NCBI GenBank assembly: GCA_015143295.1
Contig: CM026568.1
Span: 15,754,607 to 15,818,606, forward strand
DNA: 64,000 nucleotides
Direction: 5' to 3'
Origin: Tetracentron sinense
Lineage: Eukaryota; Streptophyta; Magnoliopsida; Trochodendrales; Trochodendraceae
Part shown: piece after piece, positions 1-62,400 of the stretch
Layout: every line of letters starts with the position of its first letter
How positions within the stretch are numbered: position 1 is the stretch's first letter
Notes under the pieces: model-generated
Told to the model about the DNA's origin: nothing
Seen by the model: only the letters and a program-made list of their open reading frames with translations
Database searches by the model: none
Translations under genes and position numbers: made by a program

Positions 1-3000
1 GTTGGTTTTGAGATGGTAGATGCTATAGCTGAAGCTGAAGGGATATCCATGAGCAGTGTTTGCTTTAAAGCGCTTTTTGGAAAAGGTTCACACATTTTTA
101 ACACAGTTCGGAGTTAAAGCAATTCTTCATTGCTACAACTAAGTACATAGAAGAGCTGGAACAAAGTGGATCAATGAGCACTGTTATATTTCTCACAGTT
201 ACAATTCTCAACACATTGGGTTAATAGCATGCATCTTCTGGCTCTGTTGTACTATATTTCCTTACTGGATGATGTTTATGATGGTCTAATTTCGAGTTAC
301 TGGTTTAAGTGGAGCTATATTATCATAGATTTTCAATTTTCTACTGTAGCAACCATTCTATGAGATGCATTGTACTAAGCAGTGTTTTAAAAGGCATGTG
401 AGACTTATCCTCGAGGCTCGCCTCAGGGCGAGGCTTAAGGAAAATGCCTTGAGGCTTACGCCTCCGAGTGTGAGATTCACATGAGATGAATGCCCCACGC
501 CTTGTAACTCACTTTATGACTAAGGCAAACGTCTCATGCATTAACCTAAAATTGGTTTCTAGACTTCTAGCTACATAACTTAAGACTTCTGAAATTATTA
601 TTTTTATTTCTTCATTTTTCCCTCTTCAAGATTTCTTTGAAGTTGTCTGTTGGAATCCAAAATTCAATACATGAATTAATGACTAAGCATCATCTATTTT
701 GCGATAAGTATATGTACAAAAATGTAAATTTAGATTGAAGCTTTTCCTAGCCTTTCCAAGACGTACCTTTTTTTCTATATGATGATTGAATAATTTGTTT
801 ACAATTTCTTTATATTTATTGCAATTTTTTCTATATTCTAATTATTTTTTATTTACAAAATGAGAGTGTGAGGCTTACGCCTTTGGAGGCCCAAACGCCT
901 TGCCTCAAGTCTTCGCGTTTTAAAACATTAGTATTGAGTAGTGTTACAAATCTCGTTCTCGGGTTTTTATCAGCCAAAGTTTTTTTTCAGGACATTTTCG
1001 AATCTGAATTTTTTTTAGGTATTTCTCGCCTAAATCTCGGCAATGATTAAAAACATATATTAAAATTGCATGAAATAGTAATAAATATTACCAAGTTATA
1101 AATTCATTAAACCAACAACATTGTGTATTTCTCACGATATTTTAAAATCTCTGTTAAATATCGGCTAAATCTCGCGATATATACGGAATAAAAAGAGAAA
1201 ATTATATTTCTCACGAGATTTTTAATTTATCGCGATAAAAACGGAGTTTTAAACTTTAAATGTTTTTCTCAAGAGAAATTGGGTATTTCTCGGGAGATTT
1301 GTAACAGTGGTACTGAGTCATGTAACTTCTATGAATGCATAAATCTGTTGGATAACTTATTCCTCCAAATTATTTTAAATTCCATAGGAGTGTAGACTAC
1401 GCAGTTGATCCTAGCAGCACAAGTTCAATGTGAGTCAACTCCAAAATCCGGGCAAGAAAGTTTTAACATCATATTCTCTAATTTCCATGGTGATCTGTGG
1501 TGATTGTTTTAACTTATAACATAATGTAGTTATATGATTTCAAGAATCAAAATTTGTTACTTAAAACCAGGGTTACCCGATTCGCTGCTTACTATGCCAA
1601 ACGCGAACCTTTTACTTTCATTTCGGTTTATGAAAATTAGGGAACCCCGTAATCGTACCCAATGGCCTCGGTTCGACAAATTTTCTCTTTGGGTTTGCGA
1701 ACCACTCATAAAAAGACATTTATGATGGTTTTAAAAAATAAATATTTATAATATTTTTATTTACATGCTCAATATATATATATATATAATAAATATTTAT
1801 AATATTTTTATTTACATGCTTAATATATATATATATATATATATAAACGAACCAAACTAAAGAACCTAGGCAAACTGAGAAATGAATTGTCTCATCCTCC
1901 CCTAGCGAACTGGGTTCACTCTAGGGTGGCGAACCGTGAACCTGAATTCAAACCAAGTGAACTAGGTAACATTGCTTAAAACCAATAACTGAAAGCATGG
2001 TCTAGCTGACCAATCAAAGCTTCTCAGTGTTATAAAGATTTCGGCATTAGCTTTCATTAGATGTCGTATCTCAGAGATACTCCCTAAAATAAAACACAGG
2101 CCAGTGCTTCTTAGGCTGAACCTAGCTTCTTGGACTTTGAAGTTAGGTTCAATATACTTTCCCTTTTGGAAATTTGGAAACATAGAAAATTAACAGGAGA
2201 GAACAGCATGGTAGTGGGGCAGCATGGTAGTGGGGTTCACAGTGTTGGAGATTATTTTGAGAAGATATTATGAGAGTGAGAACCACATGGAAAAAATAAT
2301 ATTTGGGTGAGCCGATGAGGTATATACATAAAACTGACATTATTGTACTGAAAATGCTGATTCAAGAGCATTCCGAATTTTTTACAAGTCTATGAAGAGA
2401 CAAATTGAATCATAGAAAATTGAGATATTTGAAAACCAAGTGGGCTGAAAACAAGAATATGAAATATATTTGGGGCAGAAATGAAGTTCCCCAAGTATTA
2501 ATAGGCTCCCAATGATTAACTCATTAGAGCACCATGCCTCTGCATTGAACTTTTGCAGGTAGTGTTATCTGCAGTTACAAATTTTTGGAAGTAATGTCAT
2601 TTTATCATATCAACCCCATATATGTGGAGCCTTATAAGAATGAGAGACGAGTTGATGTGCTTGTTTTATTGGTCCTTGCTACTGTTGAGCTGCATTGTAA
2701 AAGTAATTCCTATCTATTTTCTAATAGGTATGGTAAGCAAAGCTTTCTAGTTATTGCAATTCTCATGCCTTTTGTCTGCTTCCCCAAATTTAGGTTGTAT
2801 AGGAAATGTTCCAGTTATGCTTGCCAAACCACAGACTTTCATGAATGTGAGCGGTGAGTCTGTAAGTAAGCTCAACTGGAAGGACATCTTTATTATTAAC
2901 CATTATCTCACGTTTTGGTTATTTACCATGATCTCATTTTACATTTTTGAACCTCTGGATTGTGAAGGTCGGATCCATTGTTTCATACTACAAGATTCCA

Positions 3001-5203
3001 CTGACGCAAGTACTTGTGGTAAAATATATATCATTCTCCAAGTTACTCATCCATTCACTCTTTTTCCTTTCTTTAATTTATGAACTTGCTCTTTTTCTTT
3101 TTCACAGATATTTGACGACTTAGATTTGCCTTTTGCAAAATTACGGCTCCTGCCAAAAGGCGGACATGGAGGGCACAATGGGTATATATCTCGTGTTTGT
3201 GTTAGATAATTTGTTAATTTTGCAGCATTATTCATATCCATAATCTATTTTCGCATGGAAAAAGGAGATCCAATGTTTCTTTCTTCAATATAGTTCCAAA
3301 AGTCAAGTTTTCCTTGAAATGGTTCATATACTGATAATTTAGCAACTCCTCAACCTTCCACTTGGAACTTAGAAGTTGGTAAGGCAATGCCAAACTCAAC
3401 ATTGACCTCCACAGAACCTATCATATCACCACATCTCTCCAAGCATTTTGAGTATTCTATGGATGGGGTGCGCGCCCGCGTGTGTGTGTGCATGTGTGGT
3501 GGGGGGGGGGGGGGGGGGTAACTTTATCATTGGTCTCTTCAAGATCATGCCTTAAAACTCTCAAGAAATCAAAATAAAAAATATAACATTTTAAAGGTGA
3601 GCTAAAAGCCTAAAACATGAACTTCCTGACATGTGATAACAGATTATAAAGTAAAAGAAGAAAGAGGCAGCTTTTATTGAACCATTTTGATAGAATTAGA
3701 GACGATTACATGTTAATGAATCCTATTAGTTATGATGAATGCTGTGCATCTGTACTGCTACTTACTCACATTCACTATGTCAGGTATGGGTTTTCCAAAT
3801 AAAAGTACACAAGACATGGGATAATCAATACAGTATATAACTCTTTTTATTAATAACTTTAAAAAAAATAAGAGACTGGGAGTGGAGACAATATCTGTAC
3901 TAGGAACAATATGAATTGTGTGACTCGTGAAATTAAAGTCATAGATCAAAGACTTGGCTAGAATTTTAAGAACACCCAAATCGGATGGAAACGAAATCCC
4001 TGTGCTATTCATTTTGACCAAGAGAATAAATGGTTGCATTTGAAGGGTTAATATACTATATATATACATTATTTCAGGAGTTTAGGCTCATAAGTTAGGA
4101 CTTTTACAGTAAAATTTCATTTGTAAACAACCGTGTTCTGTAATTTGATCGCTGAAATAAGAATGTGTAGTGATTGAAGGTATTGGAAAATTTTTCCATG
4201 AAAATCTCAATCCTGGAAAAATGTATCCATCCCTTTCATGCTGTTTTACAGCACTAGGCCAAAACATGCTAATTTTCTTTTTCTGTGCTGAATTGTTTGT
4301 TATTGTAGGGGATATCACATTGATTCACCGGTAGGAATATCTTGATATGCTAATAGCTTTGTACATGATGTTTGGAAGTATTGATCTTATCGGTCAAATT
4401 TATTGACATTAAAAGATTTGCCTCATTGGATCTTTACTTCTCATTGATTCATATCAAATTCCTTCTCTTGCAAGATAAACCGCTAACTTTTACTTTTGCT
4501 TTTTAAAATGAAGTTTAAAATGTGATTCCTAGAAATCATGATTCTGAAGGTTCCTTAAATTATGGGTTTTCCTAGAAAGCAACAATATCCCATCTAATTC
4601 GAGTATAGAAGCTTGTGAGATTCATTACTTTACCTCCTTTTGCAGGATGAGAAGTGTCATCGACCACTTCCAAGGGAATCGTGATTTTCCTCGTTTAAGA
4701 ATAGGTAGGATCCAGGAGCACCCAATTGCTTGCTTATATGGTCATATATTTTTCTATTTTTGGTTGCAGTTTTTTATACTGTTTATGGAATTTCTCCAAG
4801 GCATTGGAAGACCTCCTGGGAAGATGAATCCTGTCAACTTTGTTCTTCGATCATTTAATAAACAAGAACGTGAAGAGGTATGGAAAACACATATCTTCTT
4901 CTTCTCCATCTTCCTAATGTCTCCATGGCTCCATAGTTGTGCATTATTGAGTTTAGATACTGGAACTGGTCGCTTTGTATTATCTCTTGATCATTAATAT
5001 TAATGATCTCCTCATCCAATTTATGTTCATCCTAAATTGCATTGAATATATTTAGTCTTGTAATTGACATATGCATACACATAATAATAATAATAATAAT
5101 AGATTATTGATGTTGTGACTGTTGTCTGTTGTCTGTTTTCAGTTGGATTTCACCTTTCAGAGTGGATTAGAAGCAATACGAATTTTTTTGCTCGAAGGAT
5201 TTG

Positions 5204-5245
<42 letters not shown>

Positions 5246-5390
5246 TATTGATGTTGTGACTGTTGTCTATTTTCAGTTGGATTTCACCTTTCAGAATGGA
5301 TTAGAAGCAATACGGATTCTTTTGCTCGAAGGATTTGATAAAAGTGCGACATTTGTTAACAGTGCGAAACAATTGGAGCAACTTGATTAA
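1..5390 (+). CDS. PTH: Peptidyl-tRNA hydrolase, chloroplast type (3' part, seven exons)
   Basis: This enzyme releases peptides from peptidyl-tRNAs that drop off ribosomes; this subtype is expected in the chloroplast. Exons join in frame at GT-AG sites: 1-85, 2794-2861, 2968-3018, 3108-3181, 4646-4704, 4801-4877 and 5277-5390 (TAA stop), about 175 residues. The product starts at VGFEMVDAIAEAEGIS, runs through VMLAKPQTFMNVSGES (the Asn matches E. coli Pth Asn68), IFDDLDLPF (catalytic Asp region), PKGGHGGHNG (His113/Asn114 region) and GIGRPPGKM, and ends LEGFDKSATFVN...LEQLD. The start, transit peptide and the RHN catalytic His lie upstream of the window. Intron 1 (86-2793) carries three MITEs. 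The wording fits the chloroplast/CRS2-like branch, here closer to the plain hydrolase than to the splicing factor CRS2, from memory of the family. A duplicated last exon lies at 5143-5259. Confidence 0.93.
380..930. mobile_element. hAT-like MITE in PTH intron 1
   Basis: A 551-bp element with imperfect terminal inverted repeats: CAGTGTTTTAAAA on the left and TTTTAAAACATTA on the right. Inside the ends are GAGGC/GCCTC-rich stretches. It is flanked by GTACTAAG (372-379) and GTATTGAG (931-938), a decayed 8-bp target duplication as made by hAT transposases. No coding capacity. It abuts the next MITE and shares its flanking 8-mer. Confidence 0.65.
939..1309. mobile_element. hAT-like MITE, TGTTACAAATCTC family, copy 1
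   Basis: A 371-bp element. The left end is TAGTGTTACAAATCTC and the right end GAGATTTGTAACAGTG, giving 12-16 bp terminal inverted repeats. The flanks GTATTGAG (931-938) and GTACTGAG (1310-1317) are an 8-bp target duplication with one mismatch. The interior holds many short palindromic TCTCGCGAGA-like runs. A second copy in the opposite orientation lies at 42922-43272, which confirms the ends. Confidence 0.8.
1568..1974. mobile_element. hAT-like MITE, GTTACCnAGTTC family, copy 1
   Basis: A 407-bp element beginning CAGGGTTACCCGATTC and ending ACTAGGTAACATTG. It is flanked by a perfect 8-bp duplication CTTAAAAC (1560-1567 and 1975-1982). The interior has a roughly 50-bp tandem duplication (about 1737-1840) of an AT-rich block ending in TA dinucleotides. 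Another copy of the family lies at 49350-50454. Confidence 0.82.
1983..2793. other. Remainder of PTH intron 1
   Basis: I see no gene or recognisable repeat here apart from a short tandem copy of GGCAGCATGGTAGTGGGG near 2200-2240. The stretch ends in a normal 3' splice site, AAATTTAG, before exon 2. Confidence 0.5.
3182..4645. other. PTH intron 4 with GT run and 18-base poly-G tract
   Basis: This 1.46-kb intron has no recognisable gene or transposon. At 3466-3518 a GC/GT-rich simple sequence (GCGCGCCC, then TGTGTGTG) leads into an uninterrupted run of 18 G at 3501-3518. The intron ends in CTTTTGCAG. Confidence 0.6.
5081..5340 (+). repeat. Tandem duplication of the last PTH exon with an ATA microsatellite
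   Basis: Two copies of one block lie head to tail. Each has an (ATA)n run, then ATTGATGTTGTGACTGTTGT, a pyrimidine tract ending in CAG, and the exon start TTGGATTTCACCTTTCAG through GAAGGATTTGAT. Copy 1 uses the acceptor ending at 5142 (exon from 5143). Copy 2 uses the acceptor ending at 5276 and continues to the normal end of the gene. In copy 1 the GAT codon runs straight into AAT repeats: twelve Asn codons, then KLLML and a TGA at 5257-5259. The copies differ at only a few exon bases, so the event is recent. If copy 1 is spliced in, the protein loses its normal tail and gains an Asn run. Whether it is used cannot be seen from sequence. Confidence 0.9.
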
Positions 5391-5842
5391 GACTTAAATC
5401 ACTATGATATCTTTAGTGATCACTGCAGGACAAACATAGATCAGAGGAAGAAGATTGTGGATTATGGTAAATGGTGACATGTTTTCTGCTTTTAGGAAGC
5501 AGTGAATCTGGAACATTTCAAGAGAAGAAGGCCAAGTTGTAAGAGTTTCATGCCTCATGGCGTAAGCATTCATTATTTGTAATTGCAGCTTAAGCGGTCA
5601 AATAGTAAAAAATTTCATACTTGTAAAATGACTATTGAGTATATATTAAGAATTCAAACAAAAAAAAAAATTTGGTAGAATTAAGAATTCAATTACCCTT
5701 AGGTTTTGTTTGTTGTTAGTTAGAGATTACACAGCATTCCACAGTTTACCCAGCAGAGAAGGAAAAATGTAAACAATTTTTTTGTGGGTCGTATCTACTG
5801 TCTATAAATGTTGTAGATGTTCTAAAAAGAAGACTCATGCTT
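5391..5842. other. PTH 3' UTR and downstream flank
   Basis: This follows the TAA of the hydrolase gene and should hold its 3' UTR and polyadenylation region. An A-run near 5659-5670 and AT-rich sequence are present, but no exact polyadenylation site can be fixed. No other gene is seen before the MITE that begins near 5843. Confidence 0.45.
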
Positions 5843-6353
5843 ATGTTAGTTAAGGGCCGTTTGGCATCAATTCTATTGATTCTTTTATTTTGAAAAATAA
5901 TTAATTCTTTTAAAAAATTATTCTTATAATCGATTTTGTACCGTGAATGCATTTGGTAACTGTTAGTCAGAATCAATTATGAAAAAAAAAATAACAGAAT
6001 TAAATTTGGATGAAAAAATGAAAAATAAAAATAAAAATAAATAAAATTGTTTTAGGCATGCATTAAATATAGTTATATCATCAACACATATATAAGTATC
6101 ATAAAATACTAATATTTTAATTATGTCTCATCTATCTCGTAATTTTGATGCTTATCTTGATCGTTTTAAGCGTGTTTCTCAGAATTGATTATGAAAAGCG
6201 ACTTTTTTTTGTTCCCTAAAAATTGTGCCTAAATCAGGATGATTCTTAAAATTGTTTCCTAAAAATGACTTGCCAAACGCGTTTAGACTGATTCTTTTCC
6301 CGAGATAAGAAAAATCATTCCCGAGGAACGATGCCAACAACCCCTAACTAACA
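5843..6353. mobile_element. MITE with GGGCCGTTTGGCATC-type ends
   Basis: About 510 bp. The left end reads ATGTTAGTTAAGGGCCGTTT and continues GGCATC. The reverse complement of the right end reads ATGTTAGTTAGGGGTTGTTG, continuing GCATC, so the inverted termini span about 25 bp. Ends of the GGGCCGTTTGGCA type are common in non-autonomous plant hAT elements. The flanking duplication is obscured by the palindromic TTAGTTAA border. There is no coding sequence. Confidence 0.65.
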
Positions 6354-7500
6354 TGGGGTGTGTCTTAGGCAACTAGACTTACCGGTTGCGGTGGTACTGG
6401 ACTGCTGTTATGGTGTGCGAGTGCGGTGTATCAACCACCACTTGCAAGACTTGAGCTCGGGTCTGGTCCCTGGATAGACTATGTAATGACTTAGTTTCAT
6501 TTAGGGGGTTTTTAAAGTTGAAAGTGGCAACTCAAAATTCCTAAATATAACAAACGTCTCCAACTCATGTTATTTTTTCGGTGTGTGAAAAAATTAAATA
6601 TGATATATTATACAATATTTGTTAAAAAAAATTAAATATTTATTTAATTATGAATAAATTTAAGGCATATATATATATATATATATATGTTTCTCACGCG
6701 CGCTCTTATATGTCCACCCCAATCCTTACTCCCTTCTACAAACTTCTTCTCCAATTGCCATCACCTCTCCACAGTCTCTATTCACTGCCTCACGTCCTTA
6801 GTTTTTGGTTTGACAGATTTATTTAATATTTTATTTATTCTGTTGAAAATTAATAATATGATTCTTCATATTCATTTGATTATCTTTCTTTGATTGATAA
6901 GTGTTTGGAATTCAGTTATTTGTTTAAATTTTTTGCTTCTTTCTATTAAGCTAGTAAAATGAATGAAAATATGAGAAATAATGGGATGAACGAGACTGGA
7001 AAATTTTCAAACTAGCCCATTAGGTTTGCACTGTTTATCAATGGTTCACCTCTAAAATAGTATTTGGTCCATAAATATTATTGATGAGACAATCCAAACC
7101 CTTTAATCAAGCATGTGGTGATTGTAAATAGTTTTTTTTTTTTTTTTTTTTGGTGTGGAATTAAATTTTATGAAATTAATTGTGGGTAGTCAGTAATTGT
7201 AAAAAAAAAAAAATGGTATGTAGCCATAGGCAGTAATTGTAAAAAAAAAATGTTATGTAGCCCTCAAGTGTTAGGGTGCACTACCACCACTCTAAATTAA
7301 ATTAGACATAGAAAAAACAATAGAGCCTTTACTTATAATTGGGCAAGTTGGTGTTAGGAGTGGATATATAAATCCCTCTTCCTCTGTGGTGAAGAGAATT
7401 CACACACGCATCTCATGAACCCCAAGATACCAACCAAAGAATTAGGAAAAATCTGTTTGCATGGTCACGTATAGGGTTGTCAATGAGTATTGATATTATC
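6354..7500. other. Intergenic AT-rich spacer
   Basis: No gene is supported. There is a TA run at 6669-6688, a long T run near 7132-7151, and a short tandem duplication around 7186-7262 in which CAGTAATTGTAAAAAAAA and the bases after it occur twice. Confidence 0.5.
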
Positions 7501-11700: not shown

Positions 11701-11922
11701 ATATATGTATAATATCTTTACTATTATAATTGGAGAGGCAGCGTAGCCTGATTTTTCCAAATTTCCTAAACTACCCTTATACAAACCAAAACTTTGATTT
11801 AATGTTTTACTTTAATTCCCAAACTACCCCTTCCTCATCTATCTATTAAAAATAATAGAATCACAGCCACTCGCGATTAAACCCGGGGAGAGTTCAATCA
11901 CACCTTCGGGTTAACACGTGTC

Positions 11923-14285
11923 TGTGAACACCAAAATTTACCGCCTTTCCTCTCCTCTCAACTCTAAGTGTCGAGATAAGGTCCGAGAGTAGAGGAATAA
12001 CGCTAAATTTATTCCAAGAGTCGCCACCTATTTAGGGGAAGTAGGATCCCGAGATAATCCAAAATAAGGGGGTCTACGGTCCAGAGTAGTCTAGGTAAGA
12101 GATCCCTTTAGGTCCTGGGGAAGGGGTTAGGCACCCCAGGACCTCCATCCAATGATGGTAACCTACTCATTAGGTCCAAGCTAAACATTTAAAATCACTT
12201 AAAATTTCCTAAATAATTATTTATTTTGCTAATCAAACACAAATCAATATGGGGTAAAAAATTTTATTTTTGGTTGGGGCCGAACCCTGGTTTTGGGTTG
12301 CCTACTTATCCGGTTAGTCGGAATCAGACCCTCATAGTAGTTCGGGGTCCGTGACTGTTTTTATACTCGTTTCGGAGTGTGGTCACTTCCAACTCGTGTT
12401 TGAGTTGGGGGGATGTGGAATTGAGATTTATGAATCTCATTCCGAGAGATGGTTGCGTAGCTAGGTGCTCGTGAGGGAGCTCTAGGGGGCGTTCATTTGT
12501 TAGGGTAGATTTCTTTTAGATTTTTTTGAATGTTTTTGTTATTTTGTATTTTTTTGATTTTTTTGTATTTTTTTAATTTTGGCAAGTTTAACTAGTCAAG
12601 AACTAACCTAAGTGCCCAGGGTAGGCAAAAGGGAAAATAAAGCCTAAGTGACTTAATTTCTCCACATTTATGACCTTCAATTTCCCTACATTTACAAAGG
12701 TATAGAGAGAACACAAAGGATCGTATAAATAAAGCTAATGTGCTAAGGCCTATTGATCATTCTAAATTGGTCAACTGACTTTAGCACATCAACCAACTCT
12801 GAAATCCTCTCAGCCTCAAATTTAAACTCATACAAACATTTAGGGAGAGACATAAAAAAAAACCGGCGAAATAAGTTGAAGACAGGGAACACACCTGCGC
12901 GGCTTGGAAATCAATGATGATGAAGGACTGAGGTAATGGCAACAGCTGCTTTTTTGAACCGAGAGAGGAACCCGGACAGAAATCCTCCCACTCACTCAAA
13001 TATACAGATCCAAAACATAAAATAAAATAATAATAAAAACAAAAAAAACATAGAAGGCTAGATTGCAAGCATAGCTACTAGTGAGTATCTGGCCCGACGA
13101 GAAAATGATCGGAGGTGGGTCTGGTTACTACTGAAGAACAGGAAGAAGAAGAGATCGCCGGTGCTGAGGATCGCTGTTGAAATGAGGGATTCCGGCGAGC
13201 TAGATCTCCCGAGACTGAATTTGGCCGGAGGTGGAGCTTGTTTGATCGGGATACTGCTAGCCGAAACCGAAGGTGGTGATTGATATTGAAAGAGATGAAC
13301 CTGCTGGCGTGGTTCAGGTGATGGAGTTGCTGAGTCTCAACAGATCGGAGAAGATAGAATAGATGGTGGTAGACTTGCAGCTGTTGCCGCAGATGGAGCT
13401 CGCCGGAGCTGGAGGTGATGATGGCAGCGAAACTCAATGGGAATGGAGCTTGAGACGAGCTACGGCTGGATGGACTGAGGCGAGGGATGGTGAAATTAGA
13501 TCTAGATAAAGAAACTGAAATAGAAAATGAGAGCTTGAGTGATTACCGAGAGAGGTGCTGGATCTGGCCAGAATTAACACTGGTGACAGAGGAATAGGAG
13601 CTCGCCGGAATGGAATTGGAGATGAGCTGGATGGCCTGGACTGGTGCGAACCAAAGGGGAACTCGATAGAGGAAAACCCTCTTGTTGCTCGTGACGCATG
13701 CAATTGGTGACGATGATGGAGCTGCTACCCGACGCTAATGGTGAAACTCACTGGAGAAGACGACTGGAGCTGCGGTGATGCCACAACCGAGATTGGCGGA
13801 GAAGATGAGAGAGGAGAGGAAGCTGCTGCCGCACGGTGCGATCTCGCTGGAGGTGGCAATCGGAAATGGAAGATCGGAGGAGTGGCTGATCAGGGAGCTC
13901 CCTGTTGCTGCCGCCAGCAGAAAAAGAAATAAATGAGAGAAGAAGAAAACGGGAGAGAGATGGGGGCTGTCTCAAACGAATGAGATTAGGGTAAAAATCC
14001 TAAACTCTTGGCTTTTATAGGGATCTTCAATGGGCTTTGGTGGATTTAAGATTGTGGGCCTTGGGCCTTAGACAGACAACAGGTCTTGGAAACATGGGTC
14101 CAAGGCTTTGCACGTGAGTAATCAATTATGGGTCTTATGAAATGGGTTTAGTGAAATGGATTAGGAGATGGGTTTGGACATACTCTCTTTCTCTCTCTCA
14201 ACACTCAGGCTCACAAAACAAAATTAAATTAAATTAAATTAAATTAATAAAAGGGTTTTGGGGGTGTAAAAATGGGGTGTTCACA
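11923..14285 (-). repeat. 3' LTR (element orientation) of the 13-kb LARD
   Basis: 2363 bp, the same length as 22611-24973 and nearly identical to it. Open frames seen in it on either strand occur in both LTRs and match nothing I recognise, so I regard them as chance frames in a GC-richer LTR. Confidence 0.9.
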
Positions 14286-14298
14286 GTTGCCCCTCTTT
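14286..14298 (-). other. Polypurine tract of the LARD
   Basis: The minus strand reads CAAAGAGGGGCAAC directly before the 3' LTR start TGTGAACACC. It is a standard position for plus-strand priming in LTR elements. Confidence 0.55.
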
Positions 14299-14612
14299 GT
14301 CGGAGAGTGCTGGCAATTGAACGACAAAGACTGAAACACCGTCATTTTTACACACATGAAAACCTGAAAAACTTTATGAAAGTCAAAGATGAAAGAAAGG
14401 GAAAATAAATTCTAACCCTAGTTGAACTTGCCAAAACCAATATATGGAGTGATGGATAGTTGTTTATGAGCTCATTGCGGAGGATTGCTGGGGAAAATGG
14501 GTGTACATGGACCATGGATTGATGGATTGTTGGGGAAAATGAATGTAACCGAAACATGGATTGAAGGGAGCTCGTGAACCCTACTGCATGGAGACTGATA
14601 TAGTGTCCGGAG

Positions 14613-16310
14613 CGAGGGGATTGGTGGTGACATCGCCTTGAATATCAACCGACAAAAGAGAGGATGACATCGCCTTCAATGTCAACCGACAAAAGAGAGG
14701 ATGACATCGCCTTGAATGTCAACCGAACGGACTGATGGTGACATCGCTTTGAATGTCAACCGAAAGGATTGATGGTGACATCGCCTTGAATGTCAACCAA
14801 CAGGATGGGAGGGTGACATCGTCTTGAATGTCAACCGAAAGGATTGATGGTGACATCGCCTTGAATGTCAACTAACAGGATGGGAGGGTGACATCGTCTT
14901 GAATGTCAACCGAAAGGATTGATGGTGACATCGCCTTGAATGTCAACCAACAAGATGGGAGGGTGACATCGCCTTGAATGTCAACCGAAAGGATTGATGG
15001 TGACATCGCCTTGAATATCAACCAACAGGATGAGAGGGTGACATCGCCTTCAATGTCAACTGAAAGGATCGATGGTGACATCGCCTTGAATGTCAACCAA
15101 AAGGATTGATGGTGACATCGCCTTGAATATCAACCAACAAGATGGGAGGGTGACATCGCCTTGAATGTCAACCGAAATGATTGATGGTGACATCGCCTTG
15201 AATGTCAACCAACAGGATGAGAGAGTGACATCGCCCACAATGTCAACTGAAAGGATTGATGGTGACATCGCCTTGAATATCAACCAACAAGATGGGAGGG
15301 TGACATCGCCTTCAATGTCAACCGAAAGGATTGATGGTAATATCGCCTTGAATACCAACCAAAAAGATAAGAGGGTGACATCGCCTTGAATGTCAACCAA
15401 CAAGATGGGAGGGTGACATCGCCTTGAATGTCAACCAACAGAATGAGAGAGTGACATCGCCTTCAATGTCAACTGAAAGGATTGATGGTGACATCGCCTT
15501 GAATATCAACCAACAAGATGAGAGGGTGACATCGCCTTCAATGTCAACTGAAAAGATGGATGGTGACATCGCCTTCAATGTCAACCGAAAGGATTGATGG
15601 TGACATCGCCTTCAATGTCAACCAACAAGATGGGAGGGTGACATCGCCTTCAATGTCAACAGAAAGGATTGATGGTGACATCGCCTTGAATGTCAACCAA
15701 CAAAATGGGAGGGTGACATCGCCTTCAATGTCAACCGAAAGGATTGATGGTGACATCGCCTTCAATGTCAACCGAAAAGATGGATGGTGACATCGCCTTG
15801 AATGTCAACCGAAAGGATTGATGGTGACATCGCCTTGAATGTCAACCAAAAGGATTGATGGTGACATCGCCTTGAATATCAACCAACAAGATGGGAGGGT
15901 GACATCGCCTTGAATGTCAACCGAAAGGATTGATGGTGACATCGCCTTGAATGTCAACCAACAGGATGAGAGAGTGACATCGCCTTCAATGTCAACTGAA
16001 AAGATGGATGGTGACATCGCCTTCAATGTCAACCGAAAGGATTGATGGTGACATCGCCTTCAATGTCAACCGAAAAGATTGATGGTGACATCGCCTTCAA
16101 TGTCAACCAACAAGATGGGAGGGTGACATCGCCTTGAATGTCAACCGAAAGGATTGATGGTGACATCGCCTTGAATGTCAACCAACAGGATGAGAGAGTG
16201 ATATCGCCTTCAATGTCAACAGAAAGGATTGATGGTGACATCGCCTTGAATGTCAACCAAAAGGATTGATGGTGACATCGCCTTGAATGTCAACCAAAAA
16301 GATGAATGAA
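14613..16310. repeat. 37/38-bp minisatellite array inside the LARD
   Basis: About 45 units of a 37-38 bp motif whose core is GGTGACATCGCCTTGAATGT followed by CAACC. Two tail types alternate: GAAAGGATTGAT (37-bp unit) and AACAGGATGGGAG (38-bp unit). A 37+38 dimer is 75 bp, exactly 25 codons, so open frames persist on both strands (for example GDIALNVNQQDGRVTSPSM). These are repeat by-products and not protein genes. The array sits between the interior and the 3' LTR, the hypervariable zone of Tat-like elements. Confidence 0.93.
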
Positions 16311-16419
16311 GGTAGTCTGCCTGATGAAAAATGTTTGGTGCGCGGCTTGCGCTAGAGACCTCGCGGTCTTACCTAGCTTGGCGTGTACGCGACTTGAGAG
16401 AAATGCATGATGATGCAAA

Positions 16420-17110
16420 TATGGTGAGGTGTATGTGGAGTTACATGTGTGCTAAGTGACAAAGTGGCTGAAATATGACTCGATTGAGTGTGTGCAACTG
16501 GAATGCAGTTAGGTACAATATGTGTGACTCGATTGAGTGTGTGCAACTTGAGTGTACAAATGAGTATGAGCAATTTGTGTGCAACTAAAGTGCAATATGT
16601 GCGACTCGATTAAGTGTGTGCAACTGAGTGCAGCAAGAGTGCAAAATGTGTGCGACCCCGTTAAATGTGTGCGATTGAGTGCAGCAAGAGTGCAAAATGT
16701 GTAACTCAAATGAGTGTGTACGAGTGTAGTAAAAGTGTGATGTGTGCGACTCGATTGAGTGTGTGCAACTTGAGTGTGCAAGATGGGTGCAACTAGTGCG
16801 ATATGTGCAACTAGAGTATACAAATGAGTGTGTGCAAGATGAGTGTAACTAGAGTGCAATATGAGTAACTCGATTGAGTGTGTGTAACTATAGTGTGCTA
16901 GATGGGTGCAACTAATGCGATATGTACAACTATAGTGTGCAAATGAGTGTGTGCAAGATGGGTGCAACTAGAGTGTAATGTGTGCGACCCCATCAAATGT
17001 GTGCAACTGAGTGCTACAAGAGTGCAAAGTGTGCGGCTCGATTAAACAAACGAATGTATGCAACTAGTGTCAACTAGAGTGTAGTGTGTTGAATGTATAT
17101 TGACTGGACT
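16420..17110. repeat. Degenerate GTGTGCAACTGAGTG-type tandem repeats
   Basis: Irregular repeats built from GTGCGACTCGATTGAGTGTG, GTGCAACTAGAGTGCAA and related strings, with unit lengths roughly 30-60 bp. They adjoin the minisatellite and look like an older, decayed array in the same element. Confidence 0.7.
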
Positions 17111-20100
17111 TGAATGGTATGCATGTATAACATGTATGAGAAGCAGGACAATGCAAGACTCAACTCATGCAAATGCGCGGATGATGCGACTAGACCTGGA
17201 TTGAACCAATGCAGTACTAATGGAAGATACAGATTGATGATAGGCTAAGTATATGACTCGCTCTTAGATACCAGTCTCATGCTTGTCAGAGATTTCAGAT
17301 GTTCTTGACCCTGCTCCTTCTTCCAATCGAGGTTGTTTGGCGCCCGAACAGTTGTTGAGATGAGATTGATTTGACCAAGCCAATAGACATAACCGACACT
17401 ATGACCTTGATGACCAAATGGAGGATGATAAGATATTTCTTGGAAATGCCCTACGGTTTGAGTGAGATTGATTTCAAACGAATATCAAGATCCTGATTTT
17501 GGTTGGTTATTTTGAAGACAACCAAAATTTTCGAATGCAAATGCTTTCTTTGCTCATTGGATTTAATAACGTGATCACCTTCACAAGGCGATTGAATTTT
17601 GTCCTCAGGGGTAGAACATGATGCTAAGCAAATGTGACCCGTCGTGTTGTACCATTGGTAAAGTTGAGCTTTAATCCTTGACGTATGCTGAATTAGGCCT
17701 TGCTAGAAACAAGAGACACTTAGTCAGCTCTGACGATAAGATTCTTCAACTGGTGCCTGAAAGTGCTTAGTCTTGATCTCGGGGATGCACTTAGCAAATG
17801 CTTGTTGTTTTCAACTTTTCTCTTTTTTTGCCCGTAGAATGACCAAGTCTGGTGATCACATAATTTTTGCGCAATGAGGCCAGGTTTTCACTCATGCCTG
17901 CGAAGTTGATCAAATTTTCTTTTTCCATTTTTTTTTGCCCCTAGGCGTAAGACTAGGACTGAGGTTCGCGTAATTTTTGCGCAATGAGACCATTTTAGGT
18001 TTTCCGCAACTTTCTTGAGGTATGATTTTGTTTCGACTATAAGATCCTTCAATTGGTGCTTGGAGTTCCTTTGACCTGATTTCAAAAAACCTGTTGTTAA
18101 ACGTTTGATGTTTTCAACTTTCCCTTTTTTACCCTTGGAATGACCAAGTCGTGGGGTGGCATAATTTGTGCGCAATGAGGCCGTTGTCGGTTTTCACTCA
18201 TGCCTGCGAAGTTGATCAATTTTATATTTCCCTTTTTTGCCCCTAGTCGCAAGACTAGGCCTGGGGTTCGCGTAATTTTTGTGCAATGAGGCCGCTTCCG
18301 GTTTTCACTCATGCCCGCGATTTATTTCAAAGTAGAGCCTTGCTCCCTTCATTGCCTTGGAGCATTTTGCTTTGAATAATGTCTGATAAATTATCTGCAC
18401 TCTTAATCTCTAGGGGATCGAGGTGGACTTAAGATAGGACGAAATGTAGGCTGGGGGACCGAAAGTTTGGGACACCCTTTTTCTTGAGAAATTATTTTTC
18501 ACTATGGGGAGAAGAATCTCATTTCTTTTGCACAGAAGATAAAAAAAATTTCCATTGAAAAATCATCTACTTGAGCGCCTCTTGACTTTCTTTTTCTTGC
18601 CCTTTCTTCTTTTTCTTTTTGACGTTTTTTCTTTCTACTTTTTTGATAGGCTTTTTTCTTTTGATTGAGGCTGATTTTTTTGCTCAATTGGTTGAATGTT
18701 ATGACCGACCCTAATTTTCTAGGCTGCCTACGTACCCTTTTACAGGATCAGGTCATTGACGTAGTTCAAGCAGACTGAGTACAGGGTGTCCCATTGAAAG
18801 TTTTTTTTTTGAAAGAAGGGCTATTAGGCTCGAGAGGGCTAACTATCGAACTTTGATGATATATCGAGGGTGTTACATAAATCGTAAGGGAATTAGGTGA
18901 CAAACATGGCCTCCTGTCCTTTCCCGAAGAGGCTAAGAGTGCAAGCATTAATCAAACAAGACCCTAAGCATAATAATTTTTAACCTTATCCATGTTGATT
19001 GGCTCAGGGCTCCTTGTACAAATGTTGAGTTTGCCCCTTGCATCTGCATAGCTCGATGATGCCTTGGTGAAAACGAATCATTTGCTCTGGCTTGTTGATC
19101 TGCACAACTGTGTGAAGGGTTTGACCACTTTTACTCTGAGTGAGTGCTCTGATGAGAGATGTCGCTTGAAGAAAAATATCATATCTTAATGAAAGTGGCT
19201 TTGCCCCGGCATGGACAAATCTTGATTTAGATCCGCTTTCTCGCTTGTCTATGATAATTGCTCCGCGGCATTTCTCAAATTTGGATCTTGAGCAACCACA
19301 CTATTCCTGCCCCAAGCATCGGTGAGGGTACTATTGTGGTAAATCTGTTGCCCCAAGTTATATCGAGATCTTAGTGGGTTTTGAATCTCACCTCAAGCAA
19401 ATCTTTCCTCTTGCCCCTCTGCGTGTAGTAGATGTACTTCATGTATTGACTGAGTCTGACAATTTTGCATTTGATCATCCTTGTCATAGTCAGGAGCTTT
19501 ATCTGTACAACAACTAGGATCCTGCAATTTTTCCTTTGAAATATGTCTTGAAGGTTTTGGCGAACAACAGGAGGTGAACTTGCCTCTTGCCTGATCGATC
19601 TTGACCTTGATCCCCCTGCCCCTGGCGTAGCAAGGTTCTAATTTTTGCACACGTAGGATCATTACCCAACTCTATTCTGCTTTGTAACACTCACATGGGA
19701 TTGAGGGTTTACTGTTGGAAATCCCTCTCTATGCTCTTCATCATACTCTGCCCCCAAGGGTTATGAGTTTGACTTTTGTTTGAGTGATCCCTTATTTAAA
19801 CCAATAAGCTTAGCTAGCATTTTTTATTGGGAGAAAGATATTTTTGGATTTTTGATAGCTTCAGATCGCTAGACTCTTTGAGAAGTACTAGGTCACACCT
19901 TCATTAGCCAAATGAGAAATGAGACTCTTGAAAGGAAGAGAGATTTCAAGGAATTGAAAAGTGGAGATGACTCGATTATTGCAAACTGGATATATACATG
20001 GGCCACTGTGGCCGACTCTGACGGAAAGAAAACCTAGCTAAGATTGACTCAGACCTGGCTTGATTTCGATCAATCTCGCTCGACATCTTGCTCTTGGAAC

Positions 20101-20839
20101 TCCTTTTTGACTAGGCTCGAAGATGTTCTGCTTGGCTTTCTTGGATGGCACAAGGGTGATTTGTTGATGTAGCAGGATGATGTATGGGATGTATGGAGAC
20201 AGATGTTTCAGGGGTCTCAAGTTCAAAATTAGGTTTGGTCACATCCATCAAGTTTTGGGTGGTGCCCGCACTTTTACGGTGCGGAGGGTGGGCATGGAAT
20301 GATATGTTGGGTAGGAGAAGTTTGTGATTGTGTCATTAAGATACATGAGCGGGTGTTAATTGGAATGGTTGATGGGTGAATCTGGGTTTGCCCCTGTGCC
20401 ACCAAGAGTTTGTTGAGAGCCAGGGTGACATCTTTGAGAACAAATTTGATTTCTCTGATGTCTTGCCCAATGATCAAGGAGAGTCATCGTGATGATCTTT
20501 TGGTCACTCGATGTGTCTCCGTGCTCCATATTTTCTGCTTATGTTCCACTACTTGGGCAAGTCCAAAGATGAAAGTAAAGAGTGAGTCACTACCGGATTG
20601 AGGTGGATTGGATCATGATGCTACATGAGAAGGCATGGATGAAAACCAACTATTATGAATGAGGTGAGTGCTATGGGAGACTCAAAATGAATGGCCTATT
20701 AAGCAACTTCCTGAATGAGATATGCCAAATTAAGGGTCCGGACATGTTTTGAATGATAGACTTTTGGAACTGGACTCCGTGGTTGTGCTACCTCTGAGGG
20801 TGTTGCCAACTAGATGATGCATGAGGGAGACTCGACTAA
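17111..20839. other. LARD interior without recognisable coding sequence
   Basis: A 3.7-kb stretch. At 17830-18330 a block of about 130 bp with the core GCGCAATGAGGCCG, then TTTTCACTCATGCC, recurs three to four times. Short frames elsewhere, such as the minus-strand ones at 19393-19662 and 20274-20477, match no protein family I know. Confidence 0.55.
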
Positions 20840-21150
20840 ACCTAACCAATGCAATGTTGAAGTGAGCGGAGTGCAGTGATAAAGTGAGCGTGGTTCAATG
20901 ATAGTGTAAGTGTAGTGCAATGATGAAGTGTAGTGCAATCCTATGATGAAATGCAGTGCAATATCATGATGAAGCACAGTGTCACAAGGGCACGTAGTGT
21001 AGATGTATTGAAATGCCAAAATGACGTGCAATGCAAGTGTAGTGACTATAGGTGATGGATAATGTACAGTGAAAATGATAAGGCATCACAGTGAATGTCG
21101 TGACAACCAGTGATAGTGTGCAGTGTAGTGATTGAGCAGTGTTATGATGA
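20840..21150. repeat. Degenerate AGTGCAATGATGAAGTG repeats
   Basis: A low-order repeat of GTGCAATGATGAAGTGTAG-like units about 15-25 bp long, inside the LARD interior. Confidence 0.6.
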
Positions 21151-21159
21151 TAATGAAGA

Positions 21160-21840
21160 TGACATGAATTTTTTTTTTTTTTTTTTTTTTTGATTTTATA
21201 TTTTTATATATATATATTTTTTAACTTTAATTTTTTGTTCTTTCTTCTTTCTTTTTTTTTTTCTTTTTTTTTTTTTTGATTTTGAATTTTTCTCTTTTCA
21301 ACTTGGATTTTTGAATTGTTTGAATTTCTGGTTTATTAAATTTTGAATTTTTGATCCTTTTGAAATTTGAACTTTTGCTTTGTTTTATTTTTCTTGAACT
21401 ATGAATTAATGACATTTTTTTTTTTGAAGTTTAGATTTTTATTTTTTATTTTTTTGGATTTTGAGTTTTCTTTTTTTTGGAATTTTGAATAAATGATTTT
21501 TTTTTGAATTTTTGACTTATTTGGATTTTGAACTTCCACTTCTTTTTTTTTTTTATGTTTGAATTTTGACTCTTTTTTTTTTTTACTTTTGATTTTATTT
21601 GGACTTTGAATTTCTCATTTCATTTTTTGAATTTTATTTTTTTATTTTTTTGTTCTTTTGAATTTTATTTATTTATTTTTTTTTGTTTTTTTTATTGAAT
21701 TTTGAATCTCCTTTTTTTTTGAATTTTGAACTTTCTTTTTTTTGGATTTTGAATTTCTGATTTTGTTTAGTTTTCAAATTTTAACTTCATCTTTTTCTCT
21801 TTTGTTGTTTTTTTTTTTTTCTTTTTTCACCAATTATTTT
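21160..21840. repeat. T-rich low-complexity tract with GAATTTTTG motif
   Basis: About 680 bp of T-runs punctuated by TTTTGAATTTTTGA-like units at irregular spacing. On the element's own (minus) strand it is A-rich and would form a long A/AAAAATTC-rich leader region. Confidence 0.75.
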
Positions 21841-22588
21841 GTTGAAAGGGGTGATCCTTGACATATGTAAACCAATGGGGTAGGTAGATAGGGGTCTACC
21901 TACTAAGTTGGGTTATTGGAAACCAAGGCCCATTGGACTTAAGATAGAATATGGATATGGACATCCAATAAAATCTGGGTTTTTGAACCCCATATGCAAA
22001 GTCTAGAGATGGGTTGAGAGTTTATTCAAACCAACAACGGCTCACACAGGCCCTTTTTCTGAATGAACATATGGGTACAAATGGGTACCCTCATGTTAAA
22101 TCAAAATGTAGGGCGGGTATAGGCTATAAGCAAAGTAGGATTAGGGGAAACTTCCTAAACTGCTGCTTATAGACTATATCACAACCTAAACTATATGCAT
22201 ATGCTGGGGTAATGCAAGGTGTTCCTAAGGTGGTTGAGGGACACTTGGCCGTATATGCGACTCCCAAAAATAGGCCGATTGGCGCAAGTGGGTTTAGTCT
22301 ATATCTCTTCCTGAGAATAATCGTCCCACAGGGGTGATACAACTAAACCATGACCGTTAAGCCCCATCACTGAAGATAATCATCAAACAGTTGTAGGCGT
22401 AATAAGTCAAACTAAAGGGTTTAAGGGTTATTACACTAATATGCAATGAATATGATATGCACATAAGAGAGAATAAGAATATACCCACAACATAGAAAAA
22501 ATTAGCAAAAAGAATATTTGCTTTAGGAAATGATTGGTGTTTTTAAATGTTTGGCTTTTACTTAATTTTCAGGTTGGATCTTAGGTGG

Positions 22589-22606
22589 TCCCCAGCAGAG
22601 TCGCCA
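22589..22606 (-). other. Primer-binding site of the LARD
   Basis: The minus strand reads TGGCGACTCTGCTGGGGA, four bases inside the 5' LTR. TGG at its start fits the complement of a tRNA CCA end. From memory this resembles the tRNA-Arg-type site described for Ogre-like elements. Confidence 0.6.
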
Positions 22607-22610
22607 AAGC

Positions 22611-24973
22611 TGTGAACACCAAAATTTACCGCATTTCCTCCCCTCTCAACTCTAAGTGTCGAGATAAGGTCCGAGAGTAGAGGAATAACGCTAAATTTAT
22701 TCTAAGAGTCGCCACCTACTTAGGGGAAGTAGGATCCCGAGATAATCCAAAATAAGGGGGTCTACGGTCCAGAGTAGTCTAGGTAAGAGATCCCTTTAGG
22801 TCCTGGGGAAGGGGTTAGGCACCCCAGGACCTCCATCCAATGATGGTAACCTACTCATTAGGTCCAAGCTAAACATTTAAAATCACTTAAAATTTCCTAA
22901 ATAATTATTTATTTTGCTAATCAAACACAAATCAATATGGGGTAAAAAATTTTATTTTTGGTTGGGGCCGAACCCTGGTTTTGGGTTGCCTACTTATCCG
23001 GTTAGTCGGAATCAGACCCTCATAGTAGTTCGGGGTCCGTGACTGTTTTTATACTCGTTTCGGAGTGTGGTCACTTCCAACTCGTGTTTGAGTTGGGGGG
23101 ATGTGGAATTGAGATTTATGAATCTCATTCCGAGAGATGGTTGCGTAGCTAGGTGCTCGTGAGGGAGCTCTAGGGGGCGTTCATTTGTTAGGGTAGATTT
23201 CTTTTAGATTTTTTTGAATGTTTTTGTTATTTTGTATTTTTTTGATTTTTTTGTATTTTTTTAATTTTGGCAAGTTTAACTAGTCAAGAACTAACCTAAG
23301 TGCCCAGGGTAGGCAAAAGGGAAAATAAAGCCTAAGTGACTTAATTTCTCCACATTTATGACCTTCAATTTCCCTACATTTACAAAGGTATAGAGAGAAC
23401 ACAAAGGATCGTATAAATAAAGCTAATGTGCTAAGGCCTATTGATCATTCTAAATTGGTCAACTGACTTTAGCACATCAACCAACTCTGAAATCCTCTCA
23501 GCCTCAAATTTAAACTCATACAAACATTTAGGGAGAGACATAAAAAAAAACCGGCGAAATAAGTTGAAGACAGGGAACACACCTGCGCGGCTTGGAAATC
23601 AATGATGATGAAGGACTGAGGTAATGGCAACAGCTGCTTTTTTGAACCGAGAGAGGAACCCGGACAGAAATCCTCCCACTCACTCAAATATACAGATCCA
23701 AAACATAAAATAAAATAATAATAAAAACAAAAAAAACATAGAAGGCTAGATTGCAAGCATAGCTACTAGTGAGTATCTGGCCCGACGAGAAAATGATCGG
23801 AGGTGGGTCTGGTTACTACTGAAGAACAGGAAGAAGAAGAGATCGCCGGTGCTGAGGATCGCTGTTGAAATGAGGGATTCCGGCGAGCTAGATCTCCCGA
23901 GACTGAATTTGGCCGGAGGTGGAGCTTGTTTGATCGGGATACTGCTAGCCGAAACCGAAGGTGGTGATTGATATTGAAAGAGATGAACCTGCTGGCGTGG
24001 TTCAGGTGATGGAGTTGCTGAGTCTCAACAGATCGGAGAAGATAGAATAGATGGTGGTAGACTTGCAGCTGTTGCCGCAGATGGAGCTCGCCGGAGCTGG
24101 AGGTGATGAAGGCAGCGAAACTCAATGGGAATGGAGCTTGAGACGAGCTACGGCTGGATGGACTGAGGTGAGGGATGGTGAAATTAGATCTAGATAAAGA
24201 AACTGAAATAGAAAATGAGAGCTTGAGTGATTACCGAGAGAGGTGCTGGATCTGGCCAGAATTAACACTGGTGATAGAGGAATAGGAGCTCGCCGGAATG
24301 GAATTGGAGATGAGCTGGACGGCCTGGACTAGTGCGAACCAAAGGGGAACTCGATAGAGGAAAACCCTCTTGTTGCTCGTGACGCATGCAATTGGTGACG
24401 ATGATGGAGCTGCTACCCGACGCTAATGGTGAAACTCACTGGAGAAGACGACTGGAGCTGCGGTGATGCCACAACCGAGATTGGCGGAGAAGATGAGAGA
24501 GGAGAGGAAGCTGCTGCCGCGCAGTGCGATCTCGCTGGAGGTGGCAACCGGAAATGGAAGATCGGAGGAGTGGCTGATCAGGAAGCTCCCTGTTGCTGCT
24601 GCCAGCAGAAAAAGAAATAAATGAGAGAAGAAGAAAACGGGAGAGAGATGGGGGCTGTCTCAAACGAATGAGATTAGGGTAAAAATCCTAAACTCTTGGC
24701 TTTTATAGGGGTCTTCAATGGGCTTTGGTGGATTTAAGATTGTGGGCCTTGGGCCTTAGACAGACAACAGGTCTTGGAAACATGGGTCCAAGGCTTTGCA
24801 CGTGAGTAATCAATTATGGGTCTTATGAAATGGGTTTAGTGAAATGGATTAGGAGATGGGTTTGGACATACTCTCTTTCTCTCTCTCAACACTCAGGCTC
24901 ACAAAACAAAATTAAATTAAATTAAATTAAATTAATAAAAGGGTTTTGGGGGTGTAAAAATGGGGTGTTCACA
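22611..24973 (-). repeat. 5' LTR (element orientation) of the 13-kb LARD
   Basis: The partner of 11923-14285. It holds the element's promoter and is followed, on the minus strand, by the primer-binding site at 22589-22606. Confidence 0.9.
24699..24707 (-). promoter_or_regulatory. TATA box of the LARD promoter
   Basis: The minus strand reads CCTATAAAAGCCAAGAG. The next ~80 bases are pyrimidine-rich leader-like sequence. The same box lies at about 14011-14019 in the other LTR. This supports minus-strand transcription. It is predicted from sequence only. Confidence 0.55.
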
Positions 24974-25050
24974 GTGTCCCTTTTAACTTCTATTAACTGT
25001 GGTTAACTCCTTCCCCTTGCTCTCACGTGCATACACGTGCCAACCGCTAG

Positions 25051-59456: not shown

Positions 59457-62400
59457 CTCCCCCACTTGTTAAGTTGACGCCCTTGTCGACTTGTTCACTA
59501 AGTATTCTTCAATCTTATCTGCGAAGGGGAGAAGGGTGACGCCTAGTTCCCAACTAGCTTCGGCGTCAGATAACCCTTTCCATATTACCAAATACTCCAT
59601 ATGCGCGGGCCTGGTAGGTGAGGCTTGGACATGCGCAGCAATACGCTCAACTTTTCTTTGGGATACGGTCGTTACAATAGCTGCAGGCCGGTTTGGAATG
59701 TTGCAAGTGAGGTCTTCCTTGTCTACATTATACAACTTTAACACACTAACATGGAAGACCGGGTGATATCTGCGAAGTGACTCGGGCAGTTTCACCCTGC
59801 AGGAGACTTTTCCCACCTTTTCAGTGATAGGAAATGATCATTCGTACTTGTGAACTAAGCTTCTGTTGCCTTTATGAAAAAACTTTCAGTTATCCGAATT
59901 TAACTTTATCAGCACTAAATCTCCCACCTTGAACTTATCTTGCCTTCGCTTGGGATCCGCAAAATATCTCATTCTTCTAGCGTCTTTCTCAAGGTATGCT
60001 CGGGCATTATCCGCATTCTTGTTCCACTATTTGGAAAACTTGTAGGCGCTGGGCTGGTTCTTTGGTAACCGACAACGACTGTATAAGGCGTTAGTGGTTG
60101 TTGCCCGGTTACTAGCTCGAATGGGCTCTTGTTTGACGAAGAGCTCTGTTGTAAGTTGAAGCAAAATTAAACGACATCGAGCAAGTTCACCAAATTCTTC
60201 TGACTAACACTGACAAAGTGCCGACGGTATTCTTCAAGAAGAGCATTAAAATGCTCGGTTTGGCCATCAGTCTGAGGATGACTACTTGTTGAGAAGTTGA
60301 GCTTGGTCCCAAGAAGTTTGAATAATTCTGACCAAAACTTTCCTATGAATCTTGAGTCTTTGTCATTCACAATGTTCTGAGGCACACCCCAGTATTTCAC
60401 CACATACTTCATGAACAAGTAAGCTGCTTTCTCTGCTGAACAGTGCAATGGTGAGGGGATGAAAGTAGCATATTTTGAGAATCTGTCGATCACCACTAGG
60501 ATCGACCCAAACTCCCTCACTTTTGGCAAGGCCGAGATGAAGTCCATAAAGACACTCTCCCATGGTCTCCTAGGGATAAGTAATGGCTCCAAGAGCCCAA
60601 GAAGTCTATTCCTTTCCACCTTATCTTGTTGGCACACAAGATAAGTCTTCACATATTCTGCAACATCATCTCACATATGAAGCAAGTAGTAACCCTGTTC
60701 TAGCAAGGCAAATGTGCGGCGCCGTCCCTGATGGCCTGCCTAAAGAGTATCATGACACTTTTTTATAAGATCCTTCCTGAGGTCCTCCATCCTTGGGACA
60801 AAGATGCGACTTCCTTTTGTGTAAAGAAGCCCGTCGTTGATCCAGAAGCGACGAGTCTTGCCATTTTCAACTAGTGGCCAAATTACCTTAGCCTGGTGAT
60901 CGGTTTTCAACCCTTCACGGATCTTATCACGCAAAGTAGACTGCACTCGTTGCACACTTCTATGCATCACCTTCTTTAGGGCCGCAAGTTTCGCTTTGCG
61001 ACTGAAGGCATTGGCAACATTGTTGTACCGACCCGGCTTGTACTCTAGTTCAAAGTCGAATTCCGCTAGCAACGCTTGCCAGCGCGCTTGCTTGGACGTT
61101 AGCTTCTTTTGCGTCATGAAGTGAGACACATCGACATTGTCGGTCTTCACCACAAATTTTGATCCAAGTAAATAATGCCTCCACACCCGAAGGCAATGCA
61201 TCACTGCAAGCAACTCTTTCTCTTGAGTTGTGTAGTGACGCTCAGTTTCAGACAACTTCTGGCTCTCATAAGCAACCGGATGTTCTTTTTGCACCAACAC
61301 TCCTCCAATAGCATAGTCTGACGCATCAGTCTATACTTCAAAAGGCTTCACCAAGTTTGGCAGTGCAAGAATAGGATGTTGGGTCACGGTAAGCTTCACT
61401 CCCTCAAAGGCTTTCTGGCATTCCGTTGACCATACCCATGCATGCTCTTTCTTAAGTAGGTCAGTCAATGGTGCTGTAGCTGTTGAATAGTCTTTAATGA
61501 ACTTACGGTAGTAGTTCACAAGGCTTAAGAAAGATCGCAGCTCGGTGGTAGTCGTAGGTGGCTTCCACTCTTGAATGGATCGGATCTTGTCCTCCTCCAT
61601 TCTCACTTGTCCCTCGCCCAAAACGTGGTCAAGGAAACTAATGCGCTCCTGTGCAAATGAGCGCTTCTCCTTCTTAACATATAAACTGTTCTTCTTTAAC
61701 AAGGCCAACACCTTTTACAAGTGCTCAACATGCTTCTCAAGAATTGAACTATACACCACGATATCATCCAAGTAAACCACAACGAACTTGCCAAGGAGCT
61801 CATGGAATATCTGGTTCATTAGTGTTGAGAAGGTAGCTAGTGCGTTGGTAAGGCCGAAAGGCATCACCATGAATTCGAATGTGTCGTATCTCGTCACGCA
61901 AGTCGTCTTAGGTTCTTCGCCCTCCGTGACGTGAACCTGATAGTAGCCTGACCGCAAATCAAGCTTACTGAAGTACTTGGTTGTCCCAAGTTGGTCGAAC
62001 AAATCAGCAATCAATGGGATGTGATACTTGTTCCGTACGGTTAACTTGTTCAATGCTTGGTAATCCACGCAAAGCCTAAGACTCCCATCATGCTTGCGCT
62101 GGAAGAGAATTGGTGCCCCAAAGGGTTTCTTGGAGGGGCGAATGAAGCCTGACTCCAAAAGATCATCAAGTTGTTTCCGAAGTTCTGCAAACTCCGGAGG
62201 GGTCATACGATAAGGAGCTTTAGCAGGCAGCTTAGCCCCAGAAACAAGTTCTATCTCGTGGTCAATTGTTCGACGAGGAGGAAGGGACTTTGTTAACTTG
62301 TTGGGCATGACGCTAGCAAACTTCATCAGCACCTCGGTCACTTTCTTCGGAACTGGACCTTGCTCCAATTGAGACTCTTCCTTCAACGTAACCAAGTAAG

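Follow-up and report, generated by a model that had tools for sequence, protein, structure and literature searches.

The stretch analysed here (the window; 64,000 nucleotides of Tetracentron sinense contig CM026568.1, C18:15754607-15818606, from a searched genome of 1.161 Gb in 1479 contigs) carries exons 2 to 8 of a CRS2-like gene for peptidyl-tRNA hydrolase (PTH), an enzyme that cleans up after protein synthesis, in which the end of the last intron, its acceptor and the start of the last exon are present twice. The first exon is found farther upstream on the contig, outside the window (C18:15746745-15746981). The gene model places the remaining exons on the plus strand at 1-85 (exon 2), 2794-2861 (exon 3), 2968-3018 (exon 4), 3108-3181 (exon 5), 4646-4704 (exon 6) and 4801-4877 (exon 7, with the donor GAG/GTATGG, of which GAG is exonic), while the coding part of exon 8, the normal last exon, is placed at 5277-5390 (stop TAA) by both the model and the domain match. 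Together the eight exons form one open frame of 254 amino acids that belongs to PF01195 (E=1.1e-63; 214.8 bits against a cut-off of 27, profile positions 1-180 of 183) and TIGR00447 (E=1e-55; 188.2 bits against a cut-off of 100, positions 1-170 of 172). The product contains TRHN at 76, MNVSG at 124, FDDLDLP at 149 and GGHGGHNG at 165, which include TRHN, MN, DD and GGHNG, the PTH motifs that we take to hold the active-site residues. With canonical exons 2-8 as query, the best match among solved structures was maize CRS2; by sequence, CRS2 and bacterial Pth are the closest solved structures, and they have the domain in common with C18 PTH. One PTH intron also holds a run of 18 G (3501-3518) behind a TG-rich stretch.

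An intact paralogue on C23 likewise has eight exons in a single open frame, and its exons 2-8 equal those of the C18 copy in length. Over these exons Ks is 0.371 and Ka 0.051, and the ratio (Ka/Ks ~0.14) indicates that the pair is under constraint. The published account of T. sinense (PMC7709256) gives 24 chromosomes (between 33 and 65 Mb in length, 1.17 Gb in total), collinear sets that include chromosomes 4, 10, 18 and 23, and median Ks values of 0.382 and 0.532 for the younger and older whole-genome duplications; the contig numbers C18 and C23 are assumed here to follow its chromosome numbering. A family search of the genome returned 14 exon matches in total and located further PTH members on C4 and C7. 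No exon 8 match was found in these two relatives, and the polarity of changes in the last exon is therefore taken from the C23 paralogue.

Tandem Repeats Finder reports a 134-bp period with 1.9 copies at 5081-5341. The duplicated unit runs from an ATA array through the intron end and the acceptor into the first 65 nt of exon 8, ending GATTTGATA, and is arranged head to tail on the plus strand. From the repeat finder, the ungapped repeat and the copy alignment, copy 1 extends over 5081-5207, with (ATA)7 at its left end (5081-5101), and copy 2 over 5204-5341, with (ATA)13 at its left end (5204-5243); the two meet at a junction with 4-nt homology, ATAA (5204-5207), read off the aligned sequences. 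The ungapped copies (5123-5207 and 5257-5341) are 94% identical, and the top ungapped direct repeat within 4000-6500 scores 66 against a maximum of 14 over 30 dinucleotide shuffles, placing it far beyond chance. Outside the arrays, 4 of 98 aligned sites differ, a count that does not include a fifth substitution (G/A) bordering the ATA array, and copy 1 carries a 7-nt insertion ahead of its AG. Counted from the exon start, the copies agree over their first 19 nt. The preliminary description had proposed that acceptor, exon start and ATA microsatellite were duplicated head to tail in a PTH gene, and the period, the identity of the copies and the PF01195/TIGR00447 matches bear this out. A whole-genome search with the block, which skips simple repeats, gave two matches, namely the block itself and the C23 paralogue. 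Given that the paralogue has one copy of the block and no ATA array ahead of its acceptor, the duplication on C18 is derived, as judged against this one paralogue. The simple repeat at the copy junction is a setting in which an assembly artefact might be suspected; however, the 4 of 98 differing sites and the 7-nt indel exceed the 0.22% heterozygosity given for T. sinense in its published account (PMC7709256), and the block search showed no second allele place, so that such an artefact is very improbable.

The acceptor of copy 1 is intact, as had been described: its AG lies at 5141-5142, joins to 5143 and scores 3.2, against 3.6 for the downstream acceptor (5277) 134 nt away, with the donor at 4877 common to both. 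These scores derive from a matrix of 17 acceptor sites from three related genes (exon starts of the C7 member were set from tblastn) and serve only to compare the two sister sites, given the small size of the matrix and a last exon that begins with T, whereas G or A stands at this position in the training sites. No plausible donor follows the upstream acceptor within 5143-5276, where the best of six GT sites reaches a score of 1.0, while the 14 donors that make up the donor matrix, taken from two gene models, score 4.9-11.1; a transcript spliced to the upstream copy would consequently continue to the usual 3' end if not cleaved earlier. The arrangement is thus better described as a candidate alternative 3' splice site, with two like acceptors, one donor and no plausible donor between, than as the alternative last exon proposed at first. 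Two further models were considered and rejected: intron gain by tandem duplication, which needs a usable GT donor in the upstream copy, and a mutually exclusive or cassette exon, given that copy 1 is only part of an exon and has no plausible donor. A second AG (TTTCAG) occurs 18 nt inside each exon copy (5161 and 5295; scores 3.5 and 5.5, at least those of the acceptors in question). Splicing at these sites would skip LDFTFQ in frame, and the CRS2 match spans LDFTFQ, which favours 5277 as the normal exon start.

Whereas a 4877 to 5277 splice gives the normal C-terminus, joining 4877 to 5143 would give LDFTFQSGLEAIRIFLLEGFD followed by 12 Asn, KLLML and a stop (TGA, 5257-5259). This reading frame (5143-5259, plus strand) translates as 38 codons (21 exon-like, 12 Asn from the in-frame AAT codons of the (ATA)13 array, and KLLML) before the TGA, in agreement with the earlier prediction of a frame that runs into its own microsatellite and ends after twelve Asn and five more residues. 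The predicted alternative product has 255 aa against 254 in the canonical one; two residues change (N to S and L to F), and the last 16 residues, tail KSATFVNSAKQLEQLD, become the 12 Asn and KLLML. The loss of the normal tail on use of this acceptor was correctly foreseen, but its effect would be mild, since the domain scores barely move (Pfam 214.4 vs 214.8 bits; NCBIfam 187.8 vs 188.2), and the alternative product is not predicted to be a broken enzyme. The duplicated sequence includes the final conserved portion of the domain, so either acceptor should leave the domain intact, with a difference limited to the final 16-17 residues and two substitutions. With the stop in the last exon, junction-dependent transcript decay would not be expected. 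An intact domain by either route, together with the presence of the C23 paralogue, would explain why the duplication was tolerated. The normal tail also contains an 18-nt near-repeat (ATTTGATAAAAGTGCGAC / ATTTGTTAACAGTGCGAA, 5333-5368), seemingly present in the C23 paralogue as well, by eye.

It is a long shot that the upstream acceptor is used and supplies a second full-domain hydrolase, with a poly-Asn tail set in length by the number of ATA repeats. If so, each ATA unit gained or lost would add or remove one Asn and leave the frame and the KLLML end unchanged, and the microsatellite would tune the isoform tail among individuals. The second array also bears on whether copy 1 might act as a regulatory decoy, or as a genuine alternative last exon polyadenylated within the array, lowering the amount of normal transcript. 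A candidate poly(A) signal, an AATAAA hexamer (5239-5244, plus strand), the only one in 5081-5900, lies 96 nt past the upstream exon start, after a row of AATAAT and with a GU-rich stretch behind it, as this explanation would have it; yet ATA arrays readily yield such hexamers, and a product that retains its domain would make an odd decoy, leaving the explanation improbable.

The left breakpoint of the duplication falls within the ATA run, and the right one within the coding sequence of exon 8, at TTTGATA/AAAG (GATAA); the junction shares ATAA (4 nt) with both parents. At TTTGATA/AAAG the C23 paralogue reads TTTAACAAAAG; at the exon end it has AACAAAAG and copy 2 has GATAAAAG, and there is now no ATA run at that place. 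Thus, of the breakpoints previously located in ATA runs, the left one stands and the right one, coding and at GATAA, does not. Of the mechanisms put forward with them, slippage fits the 4-nt match, whereas unequal crossing-over between microsatellites, which would call for matching runs flanking the pre-duplication unit, is not supported, as the exon end now has none. As nothing suggests that the unit was flanked by ATA runs at both ends beforehand, slippage or template switching on the 4-nt match appears to be the better reading. The ATA run would have offered one landing place, and the event would have been a microhomology-type tandem duplication of the final part of the last intron together with the adjoining 65 nt of exon 8.

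A transposon tail as the source of the ATA run was also considered. The last intron holds a dispersed repeat remnant (4912-5063, plus strand), perhaps of an antisense reverse-transcriptase element, with 34 genome matches including the window, that is, at least 33 other places at 71-87% identity; among ten open frames of its relatives, one weakly matches RVT_1 on the minus strand (24.3 bits; cut-off 29.6). In 30 matches at 29 repeat loci (from the 33 other places, leaving out four places without a locus), the similarity to the window stops at or before 5063 in all but one (5072), and inspection by eye of the 90 nt that follow each match found no ATA run of three units; this origin was accordingly rejected. 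The last intron of the C23 gene (L009, 4086-5054) matches the same loci weakly and in other parts, where that of C18 matches the family well, and an old element may have landed in this intron before the C18 and C23 genes parted. Scans of the window for tRNA genes and Rfam families gave no matches.

For Trochodendrales, PMC7709256 provides a substitution rate of 3.25e-9 and uses a Tetracentron-Trochodendron split of 30.7 My. On the assumption that the copies change at this neutral rate, their divergence of 0.042 substitutions per site corresponds to ~6.5 My (~8 My counting the fifth difference), and the binomial interval on 4/98 (0.011-0.101) to roughly 2-17 My. The duplication is probably some million years old and, being younger than the split, should be missing in Trochodendron. 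Polarised by the C23 gene, two exon changes are derived in copy 1, each of which alters an amino acid, against a single silent one in copy 2; the tract of copy 2 has one further derived base. The derived changes lean towards relaxed constraint on copy 1, too few as they are to decide the matter. When random change was simulated at the observed divergence (4000 runs per setting), the upstream AG survived and the 21 exon codons stayed open in 82-90% of runs, and the intact acceptor and frame of copy 1 are thus no sign of selection; we rejected selection on copy 1 as a conclusion from them.

On balance, we consider it fairly probable that a microhomology-type duplication made a competing alternative 3' splice site, and neither a new intron nor a cassette exon. 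The two acceptors, nearly identical and similar in score, are separated by 134 nt; they would compete for the donor at 4877, and both would be used in part. Several observations weigh against this. Both last-exon acceptors fall below all 17 training sites (8.3-14.8), as does the paralogue's own last acceptor (1.2), a site not used to build the matrix; 4900-5420 contains four further AGs with scores of 3.5-5.5, including 4957 (3.9, upstream of both) and 5295 (5.5); and among the 3676 AGs of the window, 7.5% score at least as high as 5143 and 6.3% at least as high as 5277. What the matrix conveys, from sequence alone, is that the two acceptors are alike in score, and it makes no statement on use. 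G+C in the 150 nt after the acceptor is 25% upstream and 35% downstream, and low G+C behind the upstream site may weaken it in plants. The tail is as constrained as the rest of the protein (Ka/Ks 0.14 over 16 codons, with 4 silent and 3 changing differences, vs 0.15 in exons 2-7), so replacing it may cost something, and the polarity of the copy changes rests on one paralogue. The composition, the tail constraint and the two amino-acid changes derived in copy 1 would also suit a silent relic, in which the AU-rich microsatellite makes so poor an exon context that the upstream acceptor is passed over or serves in very few transcripts. We regard this as unlikely, though less so than a decoy, given that the upstream acceptor about equals the downstream one in score and has a tract 7 nt longer. 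The duplicated acceptor is probably a tolerated accident, and no selected function is needed to account for it.

Elsewhere in the window, direct repeats at 11922-14298 and 22610-24984 (~2.38 kb each, 99.2% identical) have the ends TGTGAACACC...GGTGTTCACA and, by eye, GTGTC on both outer sides; from these sequence features, the 11922-24984 interval is classed as a young LTR element of ~13 kb. Between its LTRs are two open frames of at least 110 aa and a minisatellite (14618-16303; 37-bp unit, ~45 copies). Retrotransposon polyprotein pieces occur in separate frames at 59469-62740 on the minus strand, with RVT_1 and RNase H above their cut-offs and rve below.

As a single case the PTH duplication carries modest weight, but it would be a clean and roughly datable example of a competing acceptor arising in one step without spoiling its gene, the duplicated segment being by chance one that completes the hydrolase domain. 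Since a single-copy paralogue exists and RNA (BioProject PRJNA625382) and resequencing data have been published for T. sinense, what becomes of a newly arisen acceptor could be traced directly. Alternative 3' splice site events comprise one donor, two acceptors and a shared 3' end. C18 PTH is alike in its one donor and two acceptors, with a shared 3' end expected and use predicted, and differs from the usual case in that its second acceptor was born by duplication of a whole acceptor and exon start. Tandem exon duplication has reportedly given mutually exclusive exons in OGDH (exons 4a and 4b); C18 PTH resembles such exons in having two similar tandem copies, but copy 1 is partial, lacks a donor and forms no cassette. 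In potato RdRp, according to PMC4974935, a unit of the same type was duplicated, the copies differ at ten nucleotides where few differ here, and a cryptic GTAAG donor made the insert a new intron, as RNA reads showed. Whereas that gene gained a donor and an intron, C18 PTH has no plausible donor and instead presents, as read from its sequence, a pair of acceptors that would compete, with a microsatellite read in frame as the tail. A duplicated acceptor is thus known in kind, and within the small part of the literature covered, potato RdRp is the nearest case.
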